A DNA stretch of 36,853 bases from Planctomycetes bacterium GWF2_41_51 (GTDB taxonomy: Bacteria > Planctomycetota > Phycisphaerae > Sedimentisphaerales > UBA12454), in contig MHXZ01000031.1 of assembly GCA_001825665.1 (NCBI GenBank), positions 1 to 36,853 of the forward strand, written 5' to 3'. Of the stretch, positions 16,409 through 36,548 are shown in pieces. Position 1 is the stretch's first letter. Every line of letters begins with the position of its first letter. The position numbers and the translations under genes were made by a program. The notes beneath the pieces were generated by a model. That model was given only the letters and a program-made list of their open reading frames with translations. It did no database searches and had not been told where the DNA came from.

Positions 16409-16427
16409 GTTCTTTTCCTTAAATTAC

Positions 16428-19812: not shown

Positions 19813-19964
19813 ACCTTTGCAAAATGCCCCCCAAAACCCCGCTTGCAATCCAGCGGAAAATCAAAGCATAGACCCCCTGCTTAACTCACTATATTCAATT
19901 TGGCCAAACTTACCGCAACATATCAAAGAAGCCATAAAATCATTAATCAATACGCATACCGGAA

Positions 19965-21496: not shown

Positions 21497-21537
21497 GCCA
21501 GTGAAAAATAATGGCTGATTATAGACAATGAAGGATT

Positions 21538-21738
21538 ATGACAATGAATACAAAATTGATTTTTAATTTAGCGAGGGTAATAGCGGCAGGAGCTATATTA
21601 TTTGCAGGTATGATGGTGTTCAAGTACAGCCAGGAAGACGACGAAGCCATTACGCGGCATTTAAAAATTATAATCAGTGCCATATATACTGTTGGTGGTG
21701 GCCTTTTGGCATTTTTACCTTATGGAAGAATAAAATAA
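21538..21738 (+). CDS. Small two-helix membrane protein
   Basis: 66 aa, or 64 from the second ATG at 21544, which has AAGG nine bases upstream. Two hydrophobic segments (VIAAGAILFAGMMVF and IIISAIYTVGGGLLAFL) are separated by a charged loop (YSQEDDEAITRHLK). Family unknown. It lies 41 bases after the larger membrane protein and converges with the restriction-modification operon. Confidence 0.6.
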   Translation: MTMNTKLIFNLARVIAAGAILFAGMMVFKYSQEDDEAITRHLKIIISAIYTVGGGLLAFLPYGRIK

Positions 21739-21787
21739 TAATACGTTTTGTAACCCCCCCTTAAAATCAAAATTAGTATCATTATAT

Positions 21788-22100
21788 TTAAAGATTTAAC
21801 GTTATCCAATCAGCAGCAGCCTGAAATATAGTTTCTAATTTAAACTTTTCGCAATTTTCAACATCATCGCCAAGCGGTGCAAGGCATTGCTGCATAAACC
21901 AATTGCGCATCGTCCCAGTTTATTATTGAAGCTAAATCTCCATATTCTTTTGGTACACCTTCAAGTGCATACGCGCCATTGTTTGTTCCTGCTTTGAATG
22001 TTCCTTTTGGAACGAGAAAGCTAATTTGTCCCCAATTACCATCACAAACGAAGTCCCAGTTCAATGGCATAAATTCAATGCCGTTTGAAGTGATTATCAT
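21788..22100 (-). pseudogene. Small gene after hsdM, probably frameshifted
   Basis: The frame starts 14 bases after the hsdM stop and gives MIITSNGIEFMPLNWDFV, GNWGQISFLVPKGTFKAG and so on, up to a stop at 21864. Protein-like sequence then continues in another frame (CLAPLGDDVENCEKFKLETI, then FQAAADWITLNL) to a stop at 21788. Together they would make one protein of about 103 residues with a single-base shift near 21875. The function is unknown. As the last gene of the RM operon it may be dispensable. A 78-aa protein from the first frame alone is the other reading. Confidence 0.45.
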
Positions 22101-22114
22101 TTTAACCCTTTCAA

Positions 22115-23851
22115 CTAAACTATTTTTTCGAGTTCCTTTAATGCTGCATTGACTTCCTGTCCTTTGGCCGATATTATTTTCAGCAGTTCCGCTGGCGGCG
22201 GTGGTGGCGGCGGCGGAGCGATATTTGGATTGACCGCTTTAAGGTCATATACAGCATTTTCAATCTCTTCGGCTTTGGCCGCCAATTCTCTTGCCTCTTT
22301 TGTCAAATTTTTAAACTGCTGTTCGGCTTCCTCAATATCTGTTCGCGGAGCAAATTTGTCTTTCTTCAACGCCTGAATTTTTTCTTTCCATTGTGCTGCC
22401 TGCTGCTGCAATTCATGTGCTTTTTTCTTCAGCGGTTCGGCCTTTTCCTTCGCTTCTTTACTCAACTTTACAATATCAATAGTCCAGCTATATTTTGAAT
22501 CTTCCCGCTTCGGTAGTAACTTGAAAAATTCTTCAAAGTGTTCTGTTGCAAGCGGAATCTTCTTGCGAATTTTCAAATGCGAAAGGTCATAATACCAAAT
22601 TTTCTTTGTCTTTTTGCCCTTTGTGAAAAATAGCAAATCAGTTTTGACACCCGCACCGGCAGCCGTAAACACTCCGCCCGGAAGACTGACTATACACCAC
22701 AAATCACATTCATTAAGCAGTTTTCGTTTTGTCTGAACAAACGCCGTTTCGTTCGTCCTGAAAAGCAAACCTTCATCAAGCACCATTCCGCATCGCCCGC
22801 CATCAGCCAAACTGTTTATGATATGCTGCAAGAAAAGTACCTGCGTCGAGCCGGTCTTATAATCGAACCTTGTTTGCGCGTCCGCGCCTTCCTTGCCTCC
22901 AAATGGCGGATTGGTTAATATTACATCAAACGCATTCGGCACATTTTGAAATAATCCGCTATACGTTTCAGCGTTCGTCAGCGTATTACCATGCCAGATA
23001 TTAGGTTGGTCGATTCCGTGCAAAATAAGATTAGCAAGCGCAATCGGATATATAAGATTTTCCTTTTCCCTGCCGAAAAACGTCTTATGCTTTAATGTAT
23101 CCAAATCAACAGCGGATTTAATTTTTTCATTACTTCTTCCCACTATATATTCATAGCTCTGCGCAAGAAAGCCGCCCGTTCCGCATCCGGGGTCATAAAT
23201 AGTATCGCCTACTTTGGGGTCAATAACTTTAACCATTGCACGGATAACTTCACGCGGCGTAAAGAATTGCCCGCCATCATTTCCCTTTTCACCCATTTTC
23301 AAAAGCAGACCTTCGTAAACCTGCGAAAGCGGGAAGACGTGCGTTTTATCGACGCCCTCGGCGGTTATTTCATTAACCTTGTCCAGCACATCACAAAAAT
23401 TGCGTTCTGTATCAACCCTAACTTTTTCTACCCCCGAAAGTATTTCGCTGATAACTTTTTGCCTCGGCGTTGCATTTGGTTTGTTTTCAAGACCTTTCAG
23501 ATACGGCAAAAGCTCTGCATTTACAAAGCGAAAAAAATCGCCAAGTTTGCCTTCCTGTAATTCCTTTCGCTTCGCACCGTCAGGCGAAGCCCAGTCCCGC
23601 CAGCGATACGGAGCTTCAAAAGAAGGCTTGAATCTTGACTTTACCGCTTTTGCTTCCTGTTCTTCTATAAATTCTTTTTCGTCAAGAATGCGTAAAAATA
23701 AAATCCATGTTAATTCAGGCACATACTGCATCGCGCCAGCGCAATTGCTACGGCGCATAATATCGCATATCGATTTTATTGCTGAATTTACAGACTGCTG
23801 ACCGTTAAGTTTTTTACCATTACCATTTGTTGTTTTAGTTTTTTTTGCCAT
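22115..23851 (-). CDS. hsdM: Type I restriction-modification DNA methyltransferase (M subunit)
   Basis: 578 aa, N6-adenine methyltransferase. An HsdM_N-type helical domain (about 20-160) is followed by GGQFFTPREV (193-202), the SAM motif DPGCGTGGF (220-228) and the catalytic NPPF (314-317). The C-terminal region (about 435-540) is a long charged coiled coil rich in Lys, Glu and Gln, followed by eight consecutive prolines and a short helix. It joins with HsdS to methylate one adenine per half-site, and with HsdR to restrict unmodified DNA. It is the fifth gene of a minus-strand operon (hsdR, nuclease-like gene, hsdS, membrane gene, hsdM), 36 bases after the membrane gene. The ribosome binding site is weak. 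All catalytic motifs are intact. Confidence 0.95.
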   Translation of the reverse strand: MAKKTKTTNGNGKKLNGQQSVNSAIKSICDIMRRSNCAGAMQYVPELTWILFLRILDEKEFIEEQEAKAVKSRFKPSFEAPYRWRDWASPDGAKRKELQEGKLGDFFRFVNAELLPYLKGLENKPNATPRQKVISEILSGVEKVRVDTERNFCDVLDKVNEITAEGVDKTHVFPLSQVYEGLLLKMGEKGNDGGQFFTPREVIRAMVKVIDPKVGDTIYDPGCGTGGFLAQSYEYIVGRSNEKIKSAVDLDTLKHKTFFGREKENLIYPIALANLILHGIDQPNIWHGNTLTNAETYSGLFQNVPNAFDVILTNPPFGGKEGADAQTRFDYKTGSTQVLFLQHIINSLADGGRCGMVLDEGLLFRTNETAFVQTKRKLLNECDLWCIVSLPGGVFTAAGAGVKTDLLFFTKGKKTKKIWYYDLSHLKIRKKIPLATEHFEEFFKLLPKREDSKYSWTIDIVKLSKEAKEKAEPLKKKAHELQQQAAQWKEKIQALKKDKFAPRTDIEEAEQQFKNLTKEARELAAKAEEIENAVYDLKAVNPNIAPPPPPPPPAELLKIISAKGQEVNAALKELEKIV

Positions 23852-23887
23852 ATAATTTTAATTAATATTACCTACAAAGAAGTTATT

Positions 23888-24532
23888 TTAATTGCCACAA
23901 ATTTGATTTTGTAAACAATTTCTCATTTTTTCTATATATAAAATCAATTTAGTTCGTGAATCTATATGATGAGTTATTAAACGCTCGATGTGTCCATCAG
24001 GGAATATCTTTCCCTTTTCCTGTGCTTGCCCTATTTTAATTAATGAATCTTCGCCATTTTGGTAATTTATGAATTCGTTTATTACTTCACGAAGTTCGTT
24101 ATAATGACTCGGTTCAATAAGTATTGCTTTTTGAATCAGCATATCACGAGCCGCTATAAGTTTTTCTTGAAAATCCCATAAATTAGTACTGTTTCCATCA
24201 TCCCAAAGTTTATCCATCGCACTTTTAAGCTGACATAAGTTCAACCATAATTCATTATAAAGCTCAAATTGTTTTTCAGAGTAAAAACTATGTTTAAGTT
24301 TTGCTTTCTCAACTTCAATTTCTACCTTTCCGTTCAATTTTGTTAATTCGGTATCGGTCTCTTTGCGAAGTGTATCTTTATATTTTTCTAATTCCCTGCC
24401 ATACTCGTGTTTAACCGATTCTGTTATGCGTACAATAAACCATTTTTTTACAGTAAAACCAAGTATTGTTAACAGAGAAACACTACTAATAGTTGTTAAT
24501 CCGAACAGTTTTAACCATTCCATCCATCTCAT
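23888..24532 (-). CDS. Membrane-anchored coiled-coil protein embedded in the RM operon
   Basis: 214 aa from the ATG at 24532, one base after the hsdS stop. GAGGGGG lies inside the end of hsdS, so translation is coupled. An N-terminal membrane helix (about 8-26: LFGLTTISSVSLLTILGF) is followed by a basic patch and a long coiled coil (VKHEYGRELEKYKDTLRKET onward). After it comes a helical domain with FYSEKQFELYNELWLNLCQL, a motif seen in uncharacterised proteins often found near defence genes. No enzyme motif. It could tether the RM complex to the membrane, or be a separate effector. Its position between hsdS and hsdM indicates co-expression. Function unknown. Confidence 0.7.
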   Translation of the reverse strand: MRWMEWLKLFGLTTISSVSLLTILGFTVKKWFIVRITESVKHEYGRELEKYKDTLRKETDTELTKLNGKVEIEVEKAKLKHSFYSEKQFELYNELWLNLCQLKSAMDKLWDDGNSTNLWDFQEKLIAARDMLIQKAILIEPSHYNELREVINEFINYQNGEDSLIKIGQAQEKGKIFPDGHIERLITHHIDSRTKLILYIEKMRNCLQNQICGN

Positions 24533-24533
24533 T

Positions 24534-25778
24534 TTAATCCCCCTCAAATGCTTTTTGTAGTAACGATGCAGGCAATTTATTTATTGCCTCTAATTCTTCT
24601 TCGCACTGTTTTAAAACCTTATCCGCTGCATCTAATTGCTTTGATAATTTTTCGACTATTTGTTTTTGCTCGGCTAATGGGGGCAGAGCCAGCTTAATTT
24701 GCTTTACGATTGTTATGCTCAATCCACTACGGTGATTGTCTCCGGTAATATTGCGAATTTGTTGATATATAGATGTTAGAACATAGTATAAATATTCTGA
24801 TACCAGTTTTTCTTTATCAATAGGATACATTGCCAAAAGTGATTGATTGCAAGCGGCTTCGGTTCTTAACAAAGCAACAGTACCGCGTGTTTTCCCTTGA
24901 CCATTTAGTGCTATAAGAACGGAATTAACAGGTAAGTATTTTGCGTTTGAATTATTCAGTCCTTTTTCAGTGATTCTATTGGGACAATCAAATATTTCTT
25001 TTTGATGAATATCTCCCGACACAAGCCATTTGATATTACCATTATCATAATATTCACGAATTGATGAATTTGGTGTTCCACCAGTCATCATCTCGCACAC
25101 ATCACCAAGTGTTACATATTTCCAGCCAGTCGGCAAAATTTCCATTTGCCGAAAAACATTATTAAGCAAAGACTCTCTTAATTTTTTTACGGCTTGTAAC
25201 TTTTCTTCCGCTGATTTTTTTGCCTTTTCAACAAGTTCAAGCTGTTTATGTAATATCTCAACTATCCGCTTTTGCTCTGGTAATGGTGGGAGAGGGATTA
25301 TTAGATTTTCAAGAAAATCTTTCGGCACTCTTTGCTGACCAACCGCACCAGTAAAAGACTCTGTCGCTTTGGATAAAACCTTTTCCTGCCGTATAAAAGA
25401 ATGTACCCACATAGCCAAAACATTATTCAAGGGTCTAATGACGTGAAATTCTGTCGTTCCAAAACCGATGCCATTAATTAGGTTTTCGGCTATTGCGTGC
25501 TTGCCATTTTGCATACAGGGTGTGATTTTGGCAAATAACACATCGCCTTCCATAAAAAAAGTGTAACCTTTTTTTACTTTTTTAAAAGGAACAGTCAAAG
25601 GATTTTCTATTGCGCCTTTAGCCGCACACACTGCGGGCATAGGAACAAACGTGGTTAAATTATCATCTCCGTAGTTTAGGTTTTTAGGTCTTTGCGGGTT
25701 TATGATTGCAATTTCTTTCAACCTTACATTCTTCCAAGTATAAGGAATTTTAACGTCGTTAGTTTGAAGCTTTATCAT
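24534..25778 (-). CDS. hsdS: Type I restriction-modification specificity subunit (S)
   Basis: 414 aa with two target-recognition domains, each followed by a conserved spacer helix: IIPLPPLPEQKRIVEILHKQ (about 165-185), then KLALPPLAEQKQIVEKLSKQ (about 370-390). The second domain starts with LPTGWKYVTLGDVCEMMTGG. This two-half layout reads a bipartite DNA target. It overlaps the upstream nuclease-like gene by 20 bases and is followed one base later by the membrane gene. Length is normal and both halves look complete, so the system should be active. The target sequence cannot be read from the protein. Confidence 0.93.
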   Translation of the reverse strand: MIKLQTNDVKIPYTWKNVRLKEIAIINPQRPKNLNYGDDNLTTFVPMPAVCAAKGAIENPLTVPFKKVKKGYTFFMEGDVLFAKITPCMQNGKHAIAENLINGIGFGTTEFHVIRPLNNVLAMWVHSFIRQEKVLSKATESFTGAVGQQRVPKDFLENLIIPLPPLPEQKRIVEILHKQLELVEKAKKSAEEKLQAVKKLRESLLNNVFRQMEILPTGWKYVTLGDVCEMMTGGTPNSSIREYYDNGNIKWLVSGDIHQKEIFDCPNRITEKGLNNSNAKYLPVNSVLIALNGQGKTRGTVALLRTEAACNQSLLAMYPIDKEKLVSEYLYYVLTSIYQQIRNITGDNHRSGLSITIVKQIKLALPPLAEQKQIVEKLSKQLDAADKVLKQCEEELEAINKLPASLLQKAFEGD

Positions 25779-26655
25779 CCTGCTGTCTTTTATCTTTCAT
25801 TATTTTCTTTTTATTTTCGTAGCTCTCTTTCATAGCTTTATCCTCATTCGTTGGCGGAATTCCATATAAAAGAACAAAACCTAATTTCGTTTTTACTTTA
25901 AGATTGTCTAAAGTACTTTCCCAATCGGATTCTGTATAAAAGCGTTCAGTTTCATAGACTACGAATATAATGTTCTCGTATTCGGTACATTGATAGCCAC
26001 TAATATCAGTAAGAATTCCGTCTAATATTACTTTAGCTTTTTCTCTGGTATCCAAATATTTATATTCAATAAGGGTCTTTAGTGTTAGACTATAGGTATC
26101 CGGTTCAAAATTTTTAATTGGGGTACTTATACTACACCAACGATGAATATCAGGAAAATATACTTGTAATACCGGCTCAATCCTGTTGTGAATGTCATTC
26201 TCTTTGCAAGGCAACCAGGCAAAGATTTCACGATTCGTAACGTACGTTTGACATCTTTTGATAACTGCTTTTAATTCTATAATATTCCTGTTATTTTCAT
26301 TTTCATTATTAGGTATATAAAGTGTTTTAAGTATTTTTATATATTGGTAAATTTTATCTCCCCATACTAAATACGGTTCTTCAGGCCCCATTTTGGTATC
26401 TAACGGGTTTTTTTTGTATTCTTCATAATCATTTAGAACTTGTTTAAGTAAAAAATTATGGTTATTACTTTCAAGTAACGATATAAGACTTGCCCAAGTA
26501 AGTTGAAAATACCTTTCAGCCATAACCTTATCGGTTTCATCGGGGGTATCATAATATTGATAGCTCCATCTATCTCCATAATTGATTGCATTTGTCAAAT
26601 AACCGTCTATTTCCTTTAATAAATCTTTATTTATGTCTCGCATTCCAGAACTCAT
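25759..26655 (-). CDS. Putative PD-(D/E)xK nuclease embedded in the type I RM operon
   Basis: 298 aa. The N-terminal half (about 1-130) is helical. The C-terminal half looks like a restriction-endonuclease fold of DpnII/MboI or similar type: helix with E160 (NRIEPVLQVYFPDI), then F183-E-P-D186, and I196-E197-Y-K199 as the PD-x(10)-ExK core. After it come a helix and strand (ILTDISGYQC and NIIFVVYET). D186, E197 and K199 are the predicted catalytic residues. A very basic tail closes the protein. It starts with an ATGA overlap with the hsdR stop and overlaps hsdS by 20 bases, so it is translated with them. It is not a standard HsdR, M or S subunit. It may be a second nuclease arm or an abortive effector. 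The family is my inference from motifs. Confidence 0.65.
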   Translation of the reverse strand: MSSGMRDINKDLLKEIDGYLTNAINYGDRWSYQYYDTPDETDKVMAERYFQLTWASLISLLESNNHNFLLKQVLNDYEEYKKNPLDTKMGPEEPYLVWGDKIYQYIKILKTLYIPNNENENNRNIIELKAVIKRCQTYVTNREIFAWLPCKENDIHNRIEPVLQVYFPDIHRWCSISTPIKNFEPDTYSLTLKTLIEYKYLDTREKAKVILDGILTDISGYQCTEYENIIFVVYETERFYTESDWESTLDNLKVKTKLGFVLLYGIPPTNEDKAMKESYENKKKIMKDKRQQDDKASN

Positions 26656-29024
26656 ACTGCGAAAATCCTCTCTTTGGTTTGATGCAGAACTTGAGCCGGT
26701 TCGCCAATAATCTTTAATGCTTCAAGACCACCGGCAAGGCGCACTTCTGGAATACGGAATATATTTGGATTTTCAAGTCCTTCCGTTCCGGCTATCGCAA
26801 ACTGATTTGTCATCGCTTTTAGCGTATTGCACGTATTGGCTGGTAAGGCTGAAAGCCATTTATTATTTTTATATACAAAGGCAGAAGCTCTATCGGTTCG
26901 CGTTCTGGGAACAAGGCCATAGCCTAAATACGCAAGGACATCATAGAGGTCATAGCTTATCATATCTTCAAGCCTTTGGACAACCGTTGGCGAATAACCG
27001 CTTTTTACAAGGTCGTCTATCAAAGCGCGTCTGTCTTCGGGTTCTATCCAGCAGTAGATAAATTTATCTAATGACGGTAATTCTTTTACAAGTCTTTGCG
27101 ATAATTTTTCCTTATACTCTTCAACGGTTACAGGCATCGCCTTGCCGTCAACTTCCGTTATGACATATCGCCCTTGGTCGGAAACGTGGACATCGAAACC
27201 ATCAACTATAATTGACGGCGGCTGTTCTGTTCCGCCGCCACCGCCTCCGCTTTCGGTTGTTTGTCTGCGGGTTACGAAATTTTCGCCGAAAAGTTTTGAA
27301 GCATCGGTATAGTCATAAACCGTAAACATCAATTTGCCGGTAGGTTCGTGGATTCTTGTGCCTCTTCCAACCATTTGGTAAAACGAAATTGGCGAACGAA
27401 CGTATTTGAAAAATACAATATTTCGGACACAAGGCACATCTACACCGGTTGTAAGTAAATCGACCGTAGTAGCTACAAAATGGCTTTGGTTTGACGCTTT
27501 AAATTCCGGTAAAAAATCATTGCCATTACTTTCAGCGGTACACTTGAAAGCATAATGGTCTTTTCGTTCTTTGTCGTTATCTCTGCACCATCGGGCATAG
27601 AGATTATTCATTTCTGCGGCAACATCGTCAGCGTGCCGGTCTCTTGCGCAGTATATGATTGTTTTCTGTTCGGGATTGCCGTTGGTAATCAGATATTTAA
27701 ACAAATCGGCGCACATCGCAATAACCCTATCGGGTAACAATATGCGGTCTTCATATTCGGTTTTCTCATATCGGTCTTTGAGTTCTTCAGCGGTTACAGG
27801 TTTGCCGGTTATTGCATCGCGCGGATTACGTTTAAGCAGTTCTTCAATGGTTATGCCGGTTTCATCGAGATTAACCCTGCCTTTTTGTAAATCACAAGCT
27901 GCTAAATAGCCGTCCTCAATACCCTGCATAAGGTCATATTCATAAACCGGCTCGCCAAAATGATTGACATTATCCGCCGTAATTTTTCTGTCTTGTTCGG
28001 CCTCTTGTGTGTTTGCAGTAAGCCGAAGTTGTCTTGGTGTTGCGGTTAATCCAATTTGAATAGCCTTATCGTTTCTGGTGAGAACGGAAGACCATTTACC
28101 CCATGCGCTGCGGTGGCATTCATCTATCACAATATGGCTGAAATAATTTTCGGGATAATGTGTAACTAAAAAATTCGCGTCTGCATCGTCATTGTCAACA
28201 TTAAGGGTTTGATAGGTTGCTACGTGGATACGCGCATTTCGGGCGTGATTCTTGCCGTCTGAATCGAGATATACAGGGGCGGCATCAGAGCCGAAAATAT
28301 TTTGAAATGCGCCAAGTCCCTGTTCCCGAAGTTCTGTCCTATCGCAAACGAATAATGCACGTTTCAATTGTCCAGCATCGGCAATTCTTTTTAAAAGATT
28401 AACTGCGATAAATGTTTTACCTGAACCAGTAGCTAAAGAAAGCAATGCCCTCGTTCCGCCTTGTGCAATTTTTTCCAATACGGCGCGAATAGCAGCATCC
28501 TGATAATAACGCCGTGTCGCTTCGCCGCCGGTATATTTTACCAATAACGGCTTGGCAAGTTCAGAATCCAGCCTGATTCCTTTTGCATCTTCGTAGAATT
28601 GCCTTAATCGCTGCGGTGTCGGAAATTCTGATAATTGTTTGGGCTGTGAAGTAATTCCGGTTTTATTATTAAACTCGACAAATAAATGACCATTTGAAGA
28701 AAATACAAACGGGATATTCAATCTTTTACAGGTTGCGTATGCTTTGGCTTGTTCGAGACCATGAGCGGGAGGAAGATTTTCCTTTTTCGCTTCAATCAGG
28801 GCCACTGCAACCGGCTGCGTATCTGGATTGACTTTGACGCGCAAAAGATAGTCGACACGACCTCTACCCTTGCGTCTTGGCTTCAAATTTCCATCGAATT
28901 GTATGGGCGGAGCGGATTCCTCACGTCTGATTAAATCTTCCGTCCAGCCTTTTGCGTGTATAGCAGGGTCGATAAGCTTAGCGCGTGTATCAGCTTCGTT
29001 GTAATAATCCCTATTTATTGGCAT
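26652..29024 (-). CDS. hsdR: Type I restriction enzyme endonuclease/translocase subunit (R)
   Basis: 790 aa. The N-terminal nuclease domain shows RVDYLL (D58) and IEAKKEN (E78, K80) as PD-(D/E)xK core. The SF2 helicase motor has ATGSGKT (198-204), DECH (301-304) and an LTATPRQ motif. Further on it has DLLTTGVDVP and VGRGTRIHEP, with an EcoEI-like C-terminal region from about 620. A glycine run (GGGGGG, about 600) marks the linker. HsdR translocates DNA and cuts when the HsdS/HsdM core finds an unmethylated target. It is the first gene of the operon, with a near-consensus promoter and a palindrome upstream. The next gene overlaps its stop by ATGA. All motifs look intact. Confidence 0.95.
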   Translation of the reverse strand: MPINRDYYNEADTRAKLIDPAIHAKGWTEDLIRREESAPPIQFDGNLKPRRKGRGRVDYLLRVKVNPDTQPVAVALIEAKKENLPPAHGLEQAKAYATCKRLNIPFVFSSNGHLFVEFNNKTGITSQPKQLSEFPTPQRLRQFYEDAKGIRLDSELAKPLLVKYTGGEATRRYYQDAAIRAVLEKIAQGGTRALLSLATGSGKTFIAVNLLKRIADAGQLKRALFVCDRTELREQGLGAFQNIFGSDAAPVYLDSDGKNHARNARIHVATYQTLNVDNDDADANFLVTHYPENYFSHIVIDECHRSAWGKWSSVLTRNDKAIQIGLTATPRQLRLTANTQEAEQDRKITADNVNHFGEPVYEYDLMQGIEDGYLAACDLQKGRVNLDETGITIEELLKRNPRDAITGKPVTAEELKDRYEKTEYEDRILLPDRVIAMCADLFKYLITNGNPEQKTIIYCARDRHADDVAAEMNNLYARWCRDNDKERKDHYAFKCTAESNGNDFLPEFKASNQSHFVATTVDLLTTGVDVPCVRNIVFFKYVRSPISFYQMVGRGTRIHEPTGKLMFTVYDYTDASKLFGENFVTRRQTTESGGGGGGTEQPPSIIVDGFDVHVSDQGRYVITEVDGKAMPVTVEEYKEKLSQRLVKELPSLDKFIYCWIEPEDRRALIDDLVKSGYSPTVVQRLEDMISYDLYDVLAYLGYGLVPRTRTDRASAFVYKNNKWLSALPANTCNTLKAMTNQFAIAGTEGLENPNIFRIPEVRLAGGLEALKIIGEPAQVLHQTKERIFAV

Positions 29025-29045
29025 TCCTGCGAAAAACCTCCGAGA

Positions 29046-29098
29046 CTCTCATCTATGAGAGAAACAAAGATTTTACTATGTAAGACATTGATTGTCAA
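29046..29098 (-). promoter_or_regulatory. hsdR operon promoter with palindrome at the start site
   Basis: On the minus strand TTGACA (29098-29093), a 17-base spacer and TAAAAT (29075-29070) form a strong promoter. CTCTCAT, CT, ATGAGAG (29046-29061) is a perfect 7-bp inverted repeat just downstream of the -10 box, where a repressor would block initiation or early elongation. The start codon is at 29024. The XRE protein at 33178 is one candidate binder (inference). Confidence 0.75.
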
Positions 29099-29204
29099 CA
29101 ATTTACGACATTTTGCCTTGATTTAGAATGCAAATTTCCGTAATTGCCTGTAAATTCAGAACATAAGACGTACATAACACTATCATAAATACTCTACAAA
29201 GTTT

Positions 29205-29909
29205 TTATAGGCGTTTTTTTCTCAGCATTACCGCACCAAAGCCAAACAATAAAAGTGTTGCCGGTTCGGGGATAAGGATGGTTGCGGTTGGGTCATTATA
29301 CATTATGTTTACTGACCATGTCGTTCCATTTAGCCACTGACCGCTTAGTATGCCCGTTCCCAAAATACGATTGCCATTGAGGGTAAGCCCGCTCCCGCAA
29401 TTGAAATTTTTGCCGTGAAAAGTAGTGGTGCTGAAGTCGTAAAAGTTAGAGAGGAGGCCATTGAAAGTTCCGCCAAAGAAATTCATATTGCTGTAATCAT
29501 TAAGATAGAGGTTGCCGCTAATGTTCCCTCCAGAAATATTAGTGGTGCTGTAACCAAAGGTGTCGATTCTGGCGACTGTACCGCTGGATAAATTGATGGT
29601 GCTGCTGTCGTCGGCAGCGAGAATACTCACTGACCCACTGGAGATATTCACAGTACTGTAGTTATAGGAGTTTATGCGGACTGCGATTCCGCCTGACATA
29701 TTTGCAGTACTGTAATTATAACATCGGAGGTAAGAAATATGACCATTGGGAACAATGAAGACTCGGCTTGTATTATAAAGATACCCATTGATTGTTTGCC
29801 AATTAAATGTAAGCTGTTCATTTCCCCGAAGAGTAAAATCAGCTTTTGTGCTATCCGTTACAATCAAAAATACTAACAGTAAACAATTTGTCATTTTTCC
29901 TGTTTTCAT
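29205..29909 (-). CDS. PEP-CTERM protein with short beta-solenoid-like repeats
   Basis: 234 aa with a signal peptide (about 1-23) and a C-terminal IPEPATLLLFGFGAVML plus RKKRL sorting signal. The middle contains about five imperfect repeats of roughly 20 residues around YSTxNISGG or SSTxNLSSG (NYSTANMSGG; NYSTVNISSG; DSSTINLSSG; GYSTTNISGG; DYSNMNFFGG), typical of a right-handed beta-helix or pentapeptide-like solenoid. AAGGAAG lies just before the start. Upstream there is a perfect TATAAT on the minus strand (29949-29944), but TTGACG is only 12 bases before it, so an activator may be needed. It is probably a surface-exposed adhesin-like or matrix protein. It is unusual as cargo next to an RM system. 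Confidence 0.75.
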   Translation of the reverse strand: MKTGKMTNCLLLVFLIVTDSTKADFTLRGNEQLTFNWQTINGYLYNTSRVFIVPNGHISYLRCYNYSTANMSGGIAVRINSYNYSTVNISSGSVSILAADDSSTINLSSGTVARIDTFGYSTTNISGGNISGNLYLNDYSNMNFFGGTFNGLLSNFYDFSTTTFHGKNFNCGSGLTLNGNRILGTGILSGQWLNGTTWSVNIMYNDPTATILIPEPATLLLFGFGAVMLRKKRL

Positions 29910-30022
29910 TTTCTTCCTTCTCCGTTAATTTAGTAATTTGCACATTATAGACGTTTTTTGCCGTCAAGCGAGGGCTTTTTACAAAGCATTCTTGCCAGTA
30001 TTTAAGCTATCTAATATTTTCA

Positions 30023-30415
30023 CTATTCGATTGAATCAGGCAGAAGGTCGCATAGGTTAGCGAGTCGGATTATTTTTTTGCAAATTTCACACTTATAGAA
30101 ATAAAAAGTGTTGGTTTTTTCTGGTTTCATTTTTTGTTTACACGCAGGACAGCAAGGAGGGTTTAGCGATTTAAACTCCTCCCATTTTAAAAGGTCAACA
30201 AAAAGTTTATTGAAATTCTTACATCTACGGTTTTTACATACTTTTGACACCCACCAGCGGAATTCGGGTGAGGGGTTTTCGTCTCTAAACACTATAGCAG
30301 GAGCACCCTTGCAGTCCATTCTGACTCCCACTTTAGGATTGTGGTATAGCTTTACCTCGTGGTTACATTTTTTGCATAGAATAACGTTCGCATCTAAAAA
30401 ATCTTTATCACACAT
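30023..30415 (-). CDS. Small multi-zinc-ribbon protein
   Basis: 130 aa from the ATG at 30415, with AAGGAG six bases upstream. Cysteine pairs appear in order as CKKC, CKNRRC, CCPAC and CEIC, enough for two or more zinc ribbons. Between them are a basic region and a WWVSK segment. No enzyme motif, and no family name I can give. An upstream extension of the frame to 30538 is rejected because it runs through the structured leader. The gene is controlled by that leader (30592-30453) and by a promoter at 30631-30659. It may bind nucleic acid or act as a regulator of the element. This is inference. Confidence 0.65.
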   Translation of the reverse strand: MCDKDFLDANVILCKKCNHEVKLYHNPKVGVRMDCKGAPAIVFRDENPSPEFRWWVSKVCKNRRCKNFNKLFVDLLKWEEFKSLNPPCCPACKQKMKPEKTNTFYFYKCEICKKIIRLANLCDLLPDSIE

Positions 30416-30452
30416 TTTTGTCTCCTTGCGAATTGGCTTTACGGCGTGCAAT

Positions 30453-30592
30453 AAAAAAAAGGACACCGCAAAACGTGCTCGTCTCAGGCTCGCCAGAGCC
30501 AACGAAAGACACGCAAGCGATGTCCCATATAGGGACACCGACCTTGATGCGTTCTTTCGTTTTTGAACTGGCGATTCGAGACGAAACGCTAA
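30453..30592 (-). ncRNA. Structured leader RNA with competing terminator hairpin (copy 2)
   Basis: Read on the minus strand: GTCTC (30582) pairs with GAGAC (30485); TCGCCAG (30574) with CTGGCGA (30496). AACGAAAGA (30561) pairs with TCTTTCGTT (30509), extended by ACGCA/TGCGT past one bulged base. GGTGTCCC (30539) pairs with GGGACATC (30526). The strand GGACATCGC (30525-30517) can instead pair over nine bases with GCGGTGTCC (30469-30461), which is followed by eight T (30460-30453): a terminator that competes with the hairpin. It shares with 20546-20731 the opening CGTTTC, the AATCGC / GCGAGCCT internal-loop strands, the CGGTG hairpin start and the GCGGxG-plus-U-run end. The ribosome binding site and ATG of the zinc-ribbon gene follow. 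Confidence 0.55.
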
Positions 30593-30630
30593 AAAAATCA
30601 GTATTTTACGTTATTAAATTGTTGCGATTT

Positions 30631-30659
30631 AAAATACACCATTTATGGTTTTTACGCAA
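30631..30659 (-). promoter_or_regulatory. Candidate promoter for the zinc-ribbon leader
   Basis: On the minus strand TTGCGT (30659-30654), a 17-base spacer and TATTTT (30636-30631) lie about 40 bases before the structured leader. The spacer holds a near-palindrome ACCATTTATGGT (30638-30649; arms perfect, centre not), a possible regulator site. Confidence 0.45.
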
Positions 30660-30726
30660 GTTTATTTGCATTGACATTGCATTAAAAATAAGCAAAAATA
30701 TATTATATTTTTAAAGTAAATTATTT

Positions 30727-30834
30727 GTCGGGGACGACCGATTTGCAAACGGTCAAGCGGCCTGAACTACGGTAAGGTCTTTCACTTATCCAACCTGCCG
30801 TTGTTCAGACCGACCCGAAAAAGGATAAGTGAAA
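30727..30834 (+). ncRNA. Pseudoknot leader that can hide the ribosome binding site
   Basis: P1: TCGGG (30728) with CCCGA (30814). P2: GACCG (30736) with CGGTC (30750). P3: CGG-C-CTGAAC-T-ACGG (30758-30772) with CCGT-T-GTTCAG-A-CCG (30798-30812), 13 pairs with two mismatches. The P3 loop contains TTTCACTTATCC (30780-30791), an exact complement of GGATAAGTGAAA (30823-30834), which includes the AAGGA ribosome binding site and touches the ATG at 30835. That pairing crosses P3, so it is a pseudoknot. This is what a translational riboswitch or protein-binding leader looks like. The ligand is unknown and the class is not one I recognise. Confidence 0.55.
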
Positions 30835-31719
30835 ATGGAAGAAAACACGAAATATCGTACAGTTTACGACATTTATGAGTGTGCCGCAAAAATCATTAAA
30901 CATTTCGGCACTGACAATCAAGCTGACGATATAAAATTTTTATTGGTAATATTGGATGTTAAAGAAAAATTAGAAGACCTATTAAAAAAGATTGTTCCGC
31001 AAAAAACAGTATCACAATTGCTTAACATATATTGTAAGTCTCTTGTAAAGAAGAAAATATTCAGCAATGATACTGACATTGCGGTACTGCACGTTAAAAA
31101 CTGGAATAAGGCTCGCAGGATGGCACTTTCTATTTTTAAATACGCTGCCGACAATAATATAAATTTACCGTCTGTCTCCGTTGGTAGCGGCTCACCTTAT
31201 GATTTTGAAAAATTACAAAATTGGGCTGTGGAATCCATTGTTAAAATATCGCAAATCGTAAAAATATGTATTTACAACATTAAACAAATCGAACCTGCTG
31301 AAGCACTAAAAACAGTTGAAGCGGATTTGTTAAAACACGCAAACGGCGCATCTTCACAGGAAAATTTGACCGATACAGAGCAAGGCAGCAACAGCAATCA
31401 GCGAAAAATAAAAGAACCTTCAAGAGAAGCTAATGAGGCTTATAACCTTTATTATACGCTGAGCAGAACTCAGAATGACATAGCTGATATAATGTCCAAA
31501 CAATATAACCGCAAATTCACACAATCGCAGATTTCCCGCTATATAAGACAGGTTAAAGAATGGCGAAAAGAAAACAATCTGCTGTTTGAAACGGTTACTG
31601 TAAAACCGCAAATAATACCAACCGACCCTGCTATCATAGAATCAGGGAAACGGACCGACGGTAAAATCACAGGCGACCCCCGAAATAAAGCCAAATCTGA
31701 ACAAGATGACAACGAATAA
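30835..31719 (+). CDS. Unknown protein with C-terminal helix-turn-helix, under the pseudoknot leader
   Basis: 294 aa from the ATG at 30835; a GTG two codons earlier is also possible. Mostly helical. The first 190 residues match no family I know. Residues about 200-245 (REANEAYNLYYTLSRTQNDI, then ADIMSKQYNRKFTQSQISRY, then IRQVKEW) form a sigma-70-region-4-like or resolvase-like HTH ending in IRQVKEWRKEN, common in planctomycete regulators. The last 45 residues are charged and low-complexity. Its start is buried in the leader's pseudoknot, so synthesis is probably tightly limited. It may be a regulator or replication-initiator-like protein of the element, made only under a particular signal. 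Function unknown. Confidence 0.6.
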   Translation: MEENTKYRTVYDIYECAAKIIKHFGTDNQADDIKFLLVILDVKEKLEDLLKKIVPQKTVSQLLNIYCKSLVKKKIFSNDTDIAVLHVKNWNKARRMALSIFKYAADNNINLPSVSVGSGSPYDFEKLQNWAVESIVKISQIVKICIYNIKQIEPAEALKTVEADLLKHANGASSQENLTDTEQGSNSNQRKIKEPSREANEAYNLYYTLSRTQNDIADIMSKQYNRKFTQSQISRYIRQVKEWRKENNLLFETVTVKPQIIPTDPAIIESGKRTDGKITGDPRNKAKSEQDDNE

Positions 31720-31760
31720 CTAACGGCTCAAACCTGATTTTTTATCATTTTTATAATTTT

Positions 31761-31834
31761 TATGCACGCTGATTCTGTATTATAAGCCAGTTATACGCAA
31801 TTATGCAACATTATGCACTTTTTGAATTGCATAA
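31761..31834. repeat. Cluster of TTATGCA repeats before the excisionase-like genes
   Basis: TTATGCA occurs at 31801-31807 and 31811-31817 and inverted (TGCATAA) at 31828-31834; TATGCAC also occurs at 31761-31767. The cluster ends 48 bases before the first HTH gene and lies in a 163-base gene-free gap. It resembles binding sites for a small recombination-directionality or replication protein. Confidence 0.45.
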
Positions 31835-31882
31835 TTCATAAGTAATGAATGGGGGGCGGGATTGATATTAGGATAGTATGAT

Positions 31883-32071
31883 ATGGGCAATTTATTAACA
31901 GCGGAAGATATGGCTATCTGGTTAAAAGTGAAACCAGAAACAATCCTTAAATGGGCAAGGACAGGCAGAATCCCTTTTTTAAGATTCTCTGGGAAAGTGG
32001 TGCGTTTTGATGTCGTAGCTGTTCAACAGGCACTTGCCGACCTTGCAGCCAAAGGGGGAGACAATGAATAA
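31883..32071 (+). CDS. Excisionase-like HTH_17 protein (first of a pair)
   Basis: 62 aa. LLTAEDMAIWLKVKPETILK, then WARTGRIPFLRFSGKVVRFD, is a MerR/excisionase-type winged HTH in which the WARTGRIP turn and the RF wing are standard. Such proteins bend DNA at attachment sites as recombination directionality factors, or regulate the element. AGGA lies eight bases upstream. It overlaps the next gene by eight bases, and TTATGCA repeats lie upstream. Confidence 0.75.
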   Translation: MGNLLTAEDMAIWLKVKPETILKWARTGRIPFLRFSGKVVRFDVVAVQQALADLAAKGGDNE

Positions 32072-32300
32072 AGATATCAGCACAATTCAGCCGGAACTTT
32101 TGACCATCTCCGATGTTTGTAAAATGCTGAATATATCGAGGGCGGAGTTTTACAAACTGAATGCCAGCGGAAAATTTGCACCGCTGAAAGTCGATCTGTG
32201 TCGAAAGATTTTGTACAACAGAACAGAAATTGAAAACTGGATACGTTCTGGCTGTGTTCACCGCAAACAATGGCAAATATTGAAAGGAAAATACAAATGA
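32064..32300 (+). CDS. Excisionase/AlpA-like HTH protein (second of a pair)
   Basis: 78 aa from the ATG at 32064, preceded by GGGGGAG. LLTISDVCKMLNISRAEFYK, then LNASGKFAPLKVD and RKILYNRTEIENWI, is an AlpA/Xis-type HTH. The start lies inside the end of the previous gene and the stop overlaps the next start as ATGA, so the three genes are translationally linked. One of the two HTH proteins is the likely excisionase for the integrase at 33694, and the other may be a regulator. Confidence 0.75.
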   Translation: MNKDISTIQPELLTISDVCKMLNISRAEFYKLNASGKFAPLKVDLCRKILYNRTEIENWIRSGCVHRKQWQILKGKYK

Positions 32301-33118
32301 AAGTTACCTCAAAAAAATTGGCCACCGCTCCACTTGCGTCAGAGCCGACGGCCAATATCAAACGATTACAGGAAAAATCTTATTTCAAAATTTGTTTACT
32401 GTCAACTAAAACCGAACAGCTTTTAGGCAATTTATTATTTGTTCTCCAATGGCCGTATATTAGCGAGACGGATAACGATACACAAAGGATAATGCTGAAA
32501 GAACGAATTCTTGCGGTAAAACAGGCAAACATCGGAGATATCAAGATAGCCGCATCAGAAAAAATTATAGAGCGGTTCTTAGCCGGAGATAAAGTGCTTA
32601 AGCCAAGGCACACAAGAGATATAGGGCGGTTTATTTCGCTCGTAAAGGTTTTTGCATTGTTGAATCTGTGGTTTCGGGAGAAGTCTGGTTCAGCTATAGT
32701 AGCTAATGATAACGATATTGAAGAAGCATTCAAAGTATGGGATATAATCGCTGATAGTCAGGAGTTAAATTTACCTCCGTATATTTATCAGTTATACAAA
32801 GAAGTGATTTTGCCTGCTTATGCAGAGATGAATGACGGCAGAAACGCAACCATTCAGGACGTAACCGGAAAACTCGGATTAAGCAGGCAGGCAATAATTC
32901 AAAAGCATTATCAGGTCTATGGACGGTATATGCCTGACTGGCAGTTGAGACAGCAGATTATTCCGATGCTGGAGACATCTGGTTTGATCACACAAGAGCC
33001 AGACCCAAATGATAAACGTAAAATACTAACCTACCCCACCACGTTACTCACTATATCACAACAGCACCCAAATACTAATTTTCAAAACAATAGTGAGTTA
33101 GGTGGTATGGTAAAATAA
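32297..33118 (+). CDS. Winged-helix protein, possibly derived from a replication helicase/primase C-terminus
   Basis: 273 aa from the ATG at 32297, with AAAGGA upstream and an ATGA overlap with the previous gene. The middle (RHTRDIGRFISLVKVFALLN, then a DNDIEEAFKVWDIIA segment) resembles the helical region that follows the ATPase domain in element-encoded primase/helicase proteins. Residues about 195-250 (TIQDVTGKLGLSRQAIIQKH; MLETSGLITQEPDPNDKRKI) form a MarR-like winged helix. No Walker or primase motif is present, so it could be a truncated replication protein or an independent regulator. It sits in the xis-to-int operon. Confidence 0.55.
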   Translation: MKVTSKKLATAPLASEPTANIKRLQEKSYFKICLLSTKTEQLLGNLLFVLQWPYISETDNDTQRIMLKERILAVKQANIGDIKIAASEKIIERFLAGDKVLKPRHTRDIGRFISLVKVFALLNLWFREKSGSAIVANDNDIEEAFKVWDIIADSQELNLPPYIYQLYKEVILPAYAEMNDGRNATIQDVTGKLGLSRQAIIQKHYQVYGRYMPDWQLRQQIIPMLETSGLITQEPDPNDKRKILTYPTTLLTISQQHPNTNFQNNSELGGMVK

Positions 33119-33177
33119 TGTGAAAAGTAACTACTTTTCAGTTGCAATGCAGCGGTTAGTTGTTTATAATTTGTAAT

Positions 33178-33393
33178 ATGGCAAAAGATATTGAACAAAA
33201 ATTACGTGAAGCAATAATGAAATCGGAATTGAGCAGATACCGGATTAGCAAGCTGTCAGGTGTAGGTGAAGCTCAGTTATCATTGTTTGTCAATGGCAAG
33301 CGAACCTTAACGCTTCCAGTGGCGGCAAAATTAGCAAATGTACTGGGATTAGAGCTTATCCCAAAAAAAGACAAGAAGGAAAATAAAATATGA
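33178..33393 (+). CDS. XRE-family repressor-like protein
   Basis: 71 aa from the ATG at 33178. A Cro/C1-type HTH covers about 17-55 (YRISKLSGVGEAQLSLFVNG, then KRTLTLPVAAKLANVLGLEL). The basic tail KKDKKENKI closes it. The size fits a small C-protein-like or Cro-like regulator of the element. Its stop overlaps the next start (ATGA). It is a plausible regulator of the integrase region or of the RM promoter palindrome at 29046-29061 (inference). Confidence 0.8.
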   Translation: MAKDIEQKLREAIMKSELSRYRISKLSGVGEAQLSLFVNGKRTLTLPVAAKLANVLGLELIPKKDKKENKI

Positions 33394-33674
33394 AAACAAA
33401 AAAGATTGAATATTTTGTACAAAAGTTATCGGTGATTCAGGAAAAACCATATAATGAACAAAAAGAAGAACTTGCCGCTTTGCAACAAGAAGTAAAACTG
33501 GCAATACCCTCAGATAAATCTGAGTTATACTTTAAAATTCAATCAATACAAAACTTCCTGAATATGAATACAATGTTGAATGCCTGCATTTCAGCTAAGT
33601 GGTCTTGTTTTTGGGCTACAATAGCGGCCATAGCAGCTTTTGTCAGCGTTATTTTAATGTTGTTTGCTGTATAA
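33390..33674 (+). CDS. Small protein with coiled coil and C-terminal membrane helix
   Basis: 94 aa. The first 60 residues are charged and helical. The last 25 (WSCFWATIAAIAAFVSVILM and on) form one membrane helix. It overlaps the XRE gene by ATGA and ends 19 bases before the integrase start. A tail-anchored partner encoded directly with an XRE gene is a common arrangement in mobile elements, but I recognise no family. Confidence 0.55.
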   Translation: MKTKKIEYFVQKLSVIQEKPYNEQKEELAALQQEVKLAIPSDKSELYFKIQSIQNFLNMNTMLNACISAKWSCFWATIAAIAAFVSVILMLFAV

Positions 33675-33693
33675 AAGAAATGAAGGGTAAAAA

Positions 33694-35058
33694 ATGAACA
33701 TTTACAAGCAAAATTACAAAGCTAAGGACGGCAAAACAGCGAAAACCTCAAAGTTTTATATTGAGTTTTTAGACCATAACAAGTTAAGGCACAAATTACC
33801 TGCATTTGCGGATAAGCGGATATCAGAAGCCTTTGGCCGGAACATCGAAAGCCTTGTAAACTGCCGTATATCAGGGCTTGAACACGATGTAAAATTAAAT
33901 CAATGGCTTGAAACTCTGCCGTCAAATATCCTGAAAAAGTTTACATCTTGGGGATTGATAGACGGACAAAGAGCAGAGATAACAAAGCCGCTGTCAGAGC
34001 ATATAAAAGACTATTCAGAGATTTTAAAAGTTAAAGGCTTTTCTGCTGATTATGTAAGACGTATGAAAAACAGGCTTGAAAAGATTGTAAATGATTGTCG
34101 ATTTTTCTATTTCCGTGATATTACAATATCGACGGTTGAACTTTATAAAGGCAAGTTGAAAAACGAAAAAAATACTGATACCACTATCGGCCATTACATT
34201 GATTGCCTGAAAACCTTTTTGAACTGGGCTGAAACAGACGGCAGAATATTACATAATCCGATTGCAAAGATAGAAAAACCCAGCAGAGATTCAAAACCGA
34301 AAGGAATTTTAACCCCTGAACAGTTTGTTAGCTTAATTAAGAACACTTTAGAGAAAAATACCATTATTAACAAAACCACTGGACAGGAAAGAGCAGTTTT
34401 ATATACACTGGCAGGAACAACAGGCATAAGACGAAATGAACTGCTTAACTTGACTTGGGACGATGTAAATCTCTCAGATGATAATGCGTTTGTTCGTGTC
34501 AGGGCTTGCATAGCCAAAAACGGAAAAGAAGCTATGCAACCTATACCAAAAATTACGATTAATCTTTTGATGGCATTGAAACGCAACAGAAAGCCGCAGG
34601 ACGCGGACAGGGTATTTGACGCCTTCGGTATGTCAATTAACACCGCCAGACTTATCAGAAACGATTTAAAAGCCGCTGAAATAGACCTGATAGGCAAAGA
34701 CGGGAATAAGATTTGTTTTCATAGCTTACGAAATTCCTATATTTCTTGGCTTGCCAACAGCCAGACCCCTGCCAAAGTCATACAAAAACTTGCCAGACAT
34801 TCAGACCCCCGCTTAACGTTCAATACTTATGCAAGGGTATTGCCGGAAGCGGAGCAAAAAGCTATTAGTTTTCTGCCCGATTTTGGCAATGTTTTAATAG
34901 GAAAAAGTTTGTGTGCCAGTTTGTGTAATGACGGTAAAAAAGTGGGTACTTCCGTGAACAACCAAAGACACGAAAAATGCTATAATAGCTTAAAAATGCC
35001 ATTTGAAGCGGTTATATCAATACCCTCAAGGGGAGTCGAACCCCTGCTGCCGGCTTGA
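33694..35058 (+). CDS. Tyrosine integrase whose 3' end lies inside the tRNA-Glu gene
   Basis: 454 aa, tyrosine recombinase. An N-terminal SAM-like core-binding domain (about 90-190) is followed by the catalytic domain with R246 (TTGIRRNELLNLTW), Lys near 273 (KNGKEAM), H343-x-x-R346 (CFHSLRNSY), H369 (LARHSDPRLT) and nucleophile Y379 (NTYARVLPEAEQ); the set is complete. The last dozen codons (IPSRGVEPLLPA, stop) are the antisense of the tRNA-Glu gene, so the present C-terminus was created by integration. On the excised circle the frame would continue into the tail at 19737-19993. An arm-like repeat lies within the coding sequence at 34906-34928. A ribosome binding site AAGGG precedes the ATG. 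Confidence 0.92.
   Translation: MNIYKQNYKAKDGKTAKTSKFYIEFLDHNKLRHKLPAFADKRISEAFGRNIESLVNCRISGLEHDVKLNQWLETLPSNILKKFTSWGLIDGQRAEITKPLSEHIKDYSEILKVKGFSADYVRRMKNRLEKIVNDCRFFYFRDITISTVELYKGKLKNEKNTDTTIGHYIDCLKTFLNWAETDGRILHNPIAKIEKPSRDSKPKGILTPEQFVSLIKNTLEKNTIINKTTGQERAVLYTLAGTTGIRRNELLNLTWDDVNLSDDNAFVRVRACIAKNGKEAMQPIPKITINLLMALKRNRKPQDADRVFDAFGMSINTARLIRNDLKAAEIDLIGKDGNKICFHSLRNSYISWLANSQTPAKVIQKLARHSDPRLTFNTYARVLPEAEQKAISFLPDFGNVLIGKSLCASLCNDGKKVGTSVNNQRHEKCYNSLKMPFEAVISIPSRGVEPLLPA
34906..34928. repeat. Arm-like repeat of segment B, right copy
   Basis: Identical over 23 bases to 19790-19812 (two AGTTTGTGT units) and starting 115 bases before the core. It lies inside the integrase gene and encodes SLCASLC in the same frame as the other copy. 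Confidence 0.7.
35021..35047. repeat. Attachment core, copy 3 (inside tRNA-Glu)
   Basis: These are the 27 bases shared with 19710-19736. They cover the acceptor 3' strand and T arm of the tRNA-Glu gene, so integration rebuilds the tRNA on the right side of the element. Confidence 0.9.
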
Positions 35059-35092
35059 GAAGCCGGTGTCCTAACCACTAGACGATGAGGGC
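35021..35092 (-). tRNA. tRNA-Glu (anticodon CTC)
   Basis: 72 bases fold as acceptor GCCCTCA / TGAGGGT with discriminator A, D arm GTC..GGAC, anticodon stem CCGGC/GCCGG with loop TTCTCAA (CTC, glutamate), and T arm AGGGG-TTCGACT-CCCCT. CCA is not encoded. The first pair is G-U instead of G-C; the U side is part of the repeated attachment core and is the same in all three copies. It is the integration target of segments A and B. Confidence 0.93.
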
Positions 35093-35205: not shown

Positions 35206-35279
35206 TGGCGACGGGTGGATTCGAACCGCCGACCCTGGGCTTATGAATCCCATGCTCTAACCAACTGAGCTACGTCGCC
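35206..35279 (-). tRNA. tRNA-Met (anticodon CAT), elongator type
   Basis: 74 bases: acceptor GGCGACG/CGTCGCC with discriminator A, D arm GCTC..GAGC, anticodon loop TTCATAA (CAT), and T arm GGCGG-TTCGAAT-CCACC. Two oddities are an A-G opposition at the base of the anticodon loop stem and a C-A opposition in the T stem. The G1-C72 pair rules out an initiator. A tRNA-Ile read through lysidine modification is a less likely alternative. It lies 113 bases upstream of tRNA-Glu in the same direction, and they are probably cotranscribed. A small TTTGCC/GGCAAA hairpin follows its 3' end. Confidence 0.85.
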
Positions 35280-35426: not shown

Positions 35427-36548
35427 ATGCTACAAAACATTATAAAAAAACGAAAAACCCGTTCTGATAAATTTCCACTAACTTTACATCCAACAGGCCA
35501 ATTTTGCAAGAAAATTAAGGGTAAGCTTTATTACTTTGGAAAAGACAAAAAAATTGCTCTACAAAGATATTTAGAACAGGCGGCTTTTCTTCATACAGGC
35601 AAGACTATACTAATTGAAAAAGAGGATTCTTTGGCGTTAAAAACTCTTTGCAATTTATATCTTGAATACCAAGAGAAAAAAGTCCAAGCTAATAATCTCA
35701 GTGCAGGTCATTTTCAGGATCAGGTTAAAAGCCTCCGTAAGTTTACAACTTTTTTAGGGCAATATTGTGAAATTGAACAGATAGGAACATTAGATTTGCA
35801 AAATTATAAACAAAAGCTCTTGAAATGTTTTTCTGCACAAAGAGTTAATTTGAATATAGGAATTATGAAGGCAATGTTTCATTGGGCCAAGAAAAATGAT
35901 GTCTTAAAAAACATACCAAATATTGATGCAATAAATAAGGTTAAGATTATAAAAAAAGAAAGAAACGTTTTTATTCCTGAGCATATTCTTAAGTTGCTGC
36001 AATTTTCAGATAATCAAATGAGGGCTATGATTTTATTAGGGTTAAATTGTGGTTTTGGATGTACAGATTGTGCTGAGTTAAAATGGAATGATTTAGATAT
36101 TGATAATAGTCGCGTTAATCTGCCACGCAGCAAAACTGGTATTGGCAGGAATCTTTTGTTGTGGCAGGATACTGTGGATACAATTGCGAAATTACCTAAA
36201 CGTGGTGAGTTAGTTTTTTATACGCGTAATGGAAATCCATGGGTCCGTACAATTAAAAACATAAAAGCAGATGGAACTGTGAAATACGTAAACGATAATG
36301 CAATTAGTAAAAGCTTTTCCAAACTTCTTAAAAAAACAGGCATAAAGGCCGAAAAAGGTGTTGGATTTTATACTTTACGCAGAACCTCGGCAACTATGGC
36401 AGCACGCAGTGGCGATCCTTTTGCAGTTCAGAAACTTCTTGGCCATGCCGATTTGAAGATGGCAACAACTTATGTGCAGGATGTTTCAGAGCAGACGGAC
36501 CAAGTTGTAAATAATATGCGTAAACTTATAATCCCAGATGCTTCTTAA
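35427..36548 (+). CDS. Planctomycete-type tyrosine recombinase with non-canonical active site
   Basis: 373 aa. The N-terminus (FPLTLHPTGQFCKKIKGKLY, then YFGKDKKIALQRYL) and the central INIGIMKAMFHWA-like core-binding domain match a planctomycete family of phage-integrase-like proteins that I know. In the catalytic domain LGLNCGFGCTDCAELKWNDL (about 205-224) stands where TGxRxxEL is expected, so no Arg aligns with catalytic Arg I. RSKTGIGRNLLLW supplies the Lys, Y315-T-L-R318-R has Tyr in place of His, and GH340 and nucleophile Y349 are present. AAAGG lies eight bases before the ATG, with a near-consensus promoter upstream. It may serve the tRNA-3'-end-like fragment 150 bases downstream. It is complete, and activity is uncertain. 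Confidence 0.88.
   Translation: MLQNIIKKRKTRSDKFPLTLHPTGQFCKKIKGKLYYFGKDKKIALQRYLEQAAFLHTGKTILIEKEDSLALKTLCNLYLEYQEKKVQANNLSAGHFQDQVKSLRKFTTFLGQYCEIEQIGTLDLQNYKQKLLKCFSAQRVNLNIGIMKAMFHWAKKNDVLKNIPNIDAINKVKIIKKERNVFIPEHILKLLQFSDNQMRAMILLGLNCGFGCTDCAELKWNDLDIDNSRVNLPRSKTGIGRNLLLWQDTVDTIAKLPKRGELVFYTRNGNPWVRTIKNIKADGTVKYVNDNAISKSFSKLLKKTGIKAEKGVGFYTLRRTSATMAARSGDPFAVQKLLGHADLKMATTYVQDVSEQTDQVVNNMRKLIIPDAS

Follow-up and report, generated by a model that had tools for sequence, protein, structure and literature searches.

The directionality of tyrosine integrases is usually credited to proteins other than the integrase, such as Xis and IHF. The closest described precedent for the locus considered here is the Myxococcus phage Mx8 in which, as reported, attP is located in the 3' part of int and integration exchanges a C-terminus of 112 amino acids for one of 13, converting IntP to IntX with an altered activity or specificity (PMC4701971, PMC6070905). 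The authors of Islander also recorded that some integrases extend across attP (PMC4383910). In the SSV-type ("suicidal") integrases of the Archaea (SSV1, pTN3, and pT26-2), attP is inside int and the gene is split by integration; a review has described such self-disrupting recombinases as exclusively archaeal (PMC8371274). Among serine integrases, the recombination site lies inside the integrase gene of streptococcal integrative and conjugative elements (ICEs) in rumA and of one integrative and mobilizable element (IME) in snf2, and integration of the rumA ICEs exchanges the C-terminus (PMC4701971, PMC5357655). In the integration-dependent immunity of actinobacteriophages, attP is inside a gene whose C-terminal signal is lost on integration (PMC5559632). 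Here, we analyze a stretch of 36,853 nucleotides (the window) from Planctomycetes bacterium GWF2_41_51 (contig MHXZ01000031.1, positions 1–36,853 of the forward strand) and argue that it very probably carries an integrative element, element B, that has its whole attachment site inside its own tyrosine integrase gene (int) and exchanges the tail of this protein on integration and excision. At the level of DNA and predicted protein, the case is established by a frame-matched exchange, a circular full-length form, a tandem fusion of int to a tail, the conservation of the tail module as protein, and arm-like repeats within the open reading frame (ORF).

Element B and its junctions comprise the following features.
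19710–35020: element B, 15,311 bp between cores, which encodes the integrase, a putative Xis, and type I restriction-modification genes
33694–35058, plus strand: tyrosine integrase, integrated tail-less form, 454 amino acids (PF00589 at 206–383, PF13102 at 102–191)
35021–35092, minus strand: intact tRNA-Glu(CTC) next to the integrase, serving as the attB target
35021–35047, plus strand: 27-bp core at the junction on the integrase side, shared with the 3' end of tRNA-Glu
19710–19736, plus strand: the copy of the core that bounds element B on the tail side, identical to 35021–35047 at 27/27 positions
19709–19993, plus strand: displaced integrase C-terminus, 94 codons from the core, in the int frame, with no full tRNA there
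19874–19972, plus strand: codons of the conserved W-P-x-L-P-x-H-I module, a predicted helical hairpin
32034–32300, plus strand: AlpA/HTH_17 protein, candidate excisionase (recombination directionality factor; PF12728, E 4e-10; PF05930, E 2e-4)

The catalytic domain PF00589 is recognized in the integrase with an E-value of 1.4e-18, which identifies it as a tyrosine recombinase of the phage integrase type. As the initial annotation of this DNA had claimed, its ORF runs in frame into the core derived from tRNA-Glu, the last 12 codons being antisense tRNA-Glu; shuffled sequences gave no chance matches to the first 21 bases of this core. The annotation had also placed the displaced continuation in the same frame at the other end of the element, and this is indeed what is found: 33694–35020 joined to 19710 onward forms one unbroken frame of 536 codons that ends in IWPNLPQHIKEAIKSLINTHTGNENETIKPK, compared with 454 residues in the integrated form. 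Integration in the window exchanges the 94 residues from the core on for 12, a swap of the C-terminus for a short host-derived one, and with an attP core inside the int ORF the gene belongs among the integrases of the Mx8 kind that extend across attP. The integrated form retains a complete active site, because the catalytic residues R246, H343, R346, H369, and Y379 are all N-terminal to the start of the core at residue 443, so that the product of the integrated gene is predicted to be catalytically complete but to end differently.

The likeness to Mx8 lies in a tyrosine integrase with attP inside int and a long C-terminus exchanged for a short one. Homology to the Mx8 Int lineage was rejected: BLASTP between the two integrases gave an E-value of 0.07 and no catalytic-domain alignment, hence no significant similarity, and the WPxLPEHI module was not found in the Mx8 tail. 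Furthermore, Mx8 is a phage case, whereas in the planctomycetes small elements across the phylum form one family and have a tail module in common. In SSV-type elements integration separates the catalytic domain from the N-terminal part, whereas the window integrase loses only its C-terminal module, and its catalytic part retains its own start at 33694 and all the catalytic residues, which sets it outside the SSV type. The initial annotation had compared the locus with the SSV type but had missed the closest precedent, Mx8 (PMC6070905, PMC4701971, PMC4383910). The rumA and snf2 elements differ in having serine recombinases and protein-coding targets, with a change of frame in rumA; in the actinobacteriophages the gene is a repressor and the lost signal an ssrA-like tag. 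The principle is already known, from Mx8 and, in other forms, from the SSV-type and ICE-rumA integrases; what is new is the breadth of the family across the phylum, its conserved, exchangeable module, and the nesting of attP. A literature search for planctomycete islands that combine an integrase with attP retrieved no paper, and its incomplete coverage makes this weak evidence of novelty.

The arrangement is repeated well beyond the window. In the window's genome, the closest relatives of the integrase terminate within antisense tRNA-Pro, tRNA-Arg, and tRNA-Ser. Across 40 genomes of the same order, related integrases enter tRNA-Glu, Arg, Cys, Lys, and Tyr and tmRNA, and in a scan of named genomes 21 of the 28 resolved relatives read into antisense tRNA genes, nearly all in Planctomycetota metagenome-assembled genomes (MAGs). 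Pairs of attachment sites (att pairs) were sought from both ends: from an int and its tRNA, the other core copy was looked for upstream on the same stretch and, conversely, from tails found with a profile, a core copy at a tRNA was looked for downstream. This yielded 20 att pairs from Planctomycetota genomes, with cores 3.7–24.8 kb apart and with targets in 10 tRNA isotypes (Glu, Lys, Arg, Ser, Leu, Ala, Tyr, Val, Gly, and Asp) and tmRNA. After the tail-side core, the tail motif appears in exactly one frame of three, and in 20/20 pairs this is the int frame, an outcome with a chance probability of (1/3)^20, or about 3e-10; a fortuitous match of frames was rejected on these grounds. A universal register between tRNA and tail was also rejected: the tRNA T-loop is read in phases 0, 1, and 2 among the 20 elements while int and tail always agree, so the match is specific to each element. 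The initial annotation had staked its proposal on the tail frame being conserved relative to the core in other elements, as it is in every one of these pairs.

A few loci deserve separate mention. In the window's genome, an int at tRNA-Arg(TCT) on contig C135 and a tail on contig C123 share IRPTGFEPVTYGLE in the same frame; this pair was left out of the count because the two are on separate contigs. In pair L193 the int ORF has only 195 codons, and the element may be decayed. In the tRNA-Ala element L188 the T-loop peptides are out of phase (GLEPTTSSLQSW on the int side vs. RLERPTSSLQSW on the tail side) and the frame is rejoined within the 25-bp core; the phase difference is an indel outside the exchanged segment. 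At L223, L232, L026, and L071 the int ORF overlaps the tRNA in the sense, not the antisense, direction, which suggests a second att orientation within the family.

Contig JAQTSY010000011.1 (L213/L253) is most simply viewed as an excised circle: it is 15,590 bp long, has an exact 127-bp terminal repeat and no tRNA, and its ORF of 579 codons runs through int, core, and tail, and through both arm-like sites. Its core has 22 bp identical to tRNA-Arg(CCT). The initial annotation had allowed that its proposal would suffer if free integrases never carried the tail, and this circular relative carries one; together with the 20/20 frame matches, it bears out the claim of one protein form for the integrated DNA and another for the excised DNA. 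Genome G338 (contig C270) has a tandem of two related elements at tRNA-Ser. The proximal int terminates inside this tRNA gene, and its distal counterpart carries a fused tail that, judged by position, would belong to its neighbor; we read this tandem as an older integrase re-fused to a tail. Among the matches listed from plasmid and phage collections, coverage of the full-length tailed Int was at most 55% of the query and none reached 80%; a scan of IMG/VR with the full-length protein found none.

The tail has a C-terminal consensus, W-P-x-L-P-[E/D]-[H/P]-[I/V]-R-x-A-I-x-x-L-[I/V]. A profile of 32 positions built from nine tails matches 85 of 392 Planctomycetota genomes (75 genera), and the matches are mostly short orphan ORFs, as expected of displaced tails. 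In 50 aligned tails, W is present in 50, P or S in 50, and L in 49, and the information at the three codon positions is 0.73, 1.16, and 0.32 bits, with third positions nearly free, a pattern that argues for selection on the tail at the protein level. The module is also present in all seven tails that were found by the core repeat alone (element B of the window and six relatives). AlphaFold predicts that the natural full-length Int of L213 is disordered from 402 to 534 and then forms helices at 536–547 and 550–567 (predicted local distance difference test, pLDDT, about 85–93); the same hairpin is predicted for the window tail (residues 56–64 and 70–88, pLDDT about 86–88), with a lower overall confidence.

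Repeats that flank the core look like candidate arm-type sites, of which the window has the following two.
34906–34928, plus strand: candidate P-arm site with the sequence AGTTTGTGTGCCAGTTTGTGTAA, which comprises two half-sites spaced 12 bp apart, lies within the coding part of int 92 bp ahead of the core, and is the same as 19790–19812
19790–19812, plus strand: candidate P'-arm site, identical to 34906–34928, 80 bp after the core start, in tail coding sequence

The window repeat scores 23 vs. a shuffle maximum of 11.5. Most elements have a direct repeat of about 15–35 bp shared by the int side before the core and the tail side after it, usually as two half-sites 11–12 bp apart (e.g., CTTACAAACCAGCTTACAAA). 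Of 18 elements, 15 have a repeat that outscores every one of 60 codon-preserving shuffles, and one more has a tie. An equal codon phase of the two repeats was rejected as a design rule, being seen in only 9/18. The L213 model has at its N-terminus the predicted strand-strand-strand-helix fold of an arm-binding domain, as in integrases of the lambda/Tn916 type (strands 3–12, 18–31, and 37–41; helix 46–64), and in Foldseek the predicted fold matches full-length lambda Int, as well as the Brujita and Tn1549 integrases. The whole attP seems to be nested in the predicted disordered linker of Int, which would therefore be the part whose codons double as recombination DNA.

The window as a whole is a tandem array with cores at 63, 19710, and 35021, and its remaining features are the following.
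63–19709: element A, a core-flanked island that precedes element B in the tandem
63–83, plus strand: third core copy (first 21 bp of the core), at the left end of element A
62–262, plus strand: second displaced tail with the homologous module WPRLSEHIQRTILALV, in frame relative to its own core
22115–29024, minus strand: element B cargo, hsdM (22115–23851), hsdS (24534–25778), a DpnII/MboI-type nuclease-like gene (25759–26655), and hsdR (26652–29024)

A homologous module near 84–262 had been noted in the initial annotation; it is present and in frame with its own core, with the qualification that it belongs to element A, the neighbor of element B, in which an integrase is not recognizable. Element A's genes are ordinary-looking (a sugar transporter, a LacI-type regulator, and LamG-like large proteins). 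A fourth core with a tail in the same frame occurs on contig C30 of the window's genome, and no overlap was found between this contig and the left end of the window that would extend the array. In the cargo of element B, the DpnII/MboI-type nuclease-like gene sits between hsdS and hsdR, and long ORFs of 925, 565, and 494 codons in the L213 element look related to these restriction-modification genes. A second, different tyrosine integrase of 373 amino acids (35427–36548, plus strand) starts just past tRNA-Met(CAT) at 35206–35279; its homologue lies downstream of an int/tRNA-Ser junction on contig C57 (L011:1128–2192), and the layout of int, tRNA, and second int is seen repeatedly.

From these observations a working of the switch can be proposed. 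In the excised circle, one ORF would encode the arm-binding, core-binding, and catalytic domains, a disordered linker, and the C-terminal helical-hairpin module (WPxLPEHI), and the codons of the linker would double as attP (arm site, tRNA-derived core, and arm site). Recombination with the tRNA attB would part the module from the enzyme; the integrated copy would then encode a catalytically complete tail-less Int ending in about 10–67 residues whose codons lie in the antisense tRNA and past it, and the codons of the tail would be left at the far end, severed from the start of the gene. Excision, or a second copy integrating next door, would re-fuse Int to a tail. Tailed Int would be the integration-phase enzyme and tail-less Int with an AlpA/Xis-like factor, for example the HTH_17 protein at 32034–32300, the excision-phase enzyme, so that the protein would report whether its DNA is integrated. 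Since the tail would be selected only when it is fused to Int, in a circle or an array, it presumably serves a step carried out there, most simply integration. That integration is favored from the circle and that the enzyme is altered once integrated, as had been suggested, is plausible. More tentatively, it is possible that in a phylum-wide integrase family directionality is set by a detachable module: tailed Int would integrate, amputated Int would be excision-only (Xis-dependent) or dormant, and neighbors in tandem would exchange tails and so re-arm one another, with chimeric integrases and cross-mobilization as the result.

The main rival is that the nesting is passive, a possible if doubtful account: attP would lie in int for compactness, integrase and site forming one cassette, and the tail would be an ordinary part of the protein (folding or multimer contacts) with no regulatory role, both forms working in both directions. 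This too predicts a frame-matched exchange and arm sites within the ORF; it accords with the retention of all catalytic residues in the integrated form, and the archaeal review regards att within int as a compact exchangeable module (PMC8371274). Yet the protein sequence of the module is conserved throughout the phylum even though it cannot be translated as a fusion to Int from an integrated single copy; it must therefore come under selection when the element is circular or in tandem. In Mx8, as reported, the swap alters activity or specificity (PMC6070905, PMC4701971). The second rival, which we consider unlikely, is that the tail is a degron or host-factor handle that keeps the circular form of Int short-lived and is removed by integration. 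Its geometry would be that of actinobacteriophage immunity, where integration strips a C-terminal signal from the product of the gene that contains attP (PMC5559632), and a disordered linker carries the predicted hairpin at the very end of the protein. However, the module is a folded, tryptophan-anchored hairpin of 30 residues, unlike a short ssrA-like tail, and loss of a degron would stabilize Int in the integrated state, favoring unwanted excision unless Xis were limiting. Antisense tRNA strands are often open in all frames and read-through ORFs on them are common, but an artefact in which the integrase stop was lost and the tail homology arose by chance has a negligible probability and is refuted by the 20/20 frame matches, a module in 75 genera, and the full-length ORF on a circular contig.

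Several observations weigh against an exchange of tails between integrated and excised forms. The circularity of JAQTSY010000011.1 rests on a terminal assembly repeat, and identical copies in a tandem array could yield the same assembly. This contig is also binned in a Candidatus Paceibacterota MAG and its integrase relatives are of the Sedimentisphaerales type; the host bin looks wrong, and the assignment reflects a probable mis-binning or else a broad host range. Most of the 50 aligned tails were found by the profile, which biases them toward conserved positions, and for most searched tails no integrase was found within the 20 kb fetched. In element A (63–19709) no recognizable integrase was found, and its arm-like repeat (146–163 / 19603–19620) is weak, with a score of 15.5 vs. 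a shuffle maximum of 17. The idea that element A is a complete sister element was rejected, given its lack of an integrase and an arm repeat near noise; the island may be degraded, or it may consist of captured chromosomal DNA.

In many genera, the state of integration would be written into the integrase protein itself by means of a small, cleanly removable module. Because the far end of such an element is marked by its displaced WPxLPEHI tail, planctomycete islands can be precisely delimited. This planctomycete family qualifies the statement that recombinases which disrupt their own gene are exclusively archaeal (PMC8371274). With two protein forms per element, the question of what tells an integrase whether its element is in or out of the chromosome becomes approachable.
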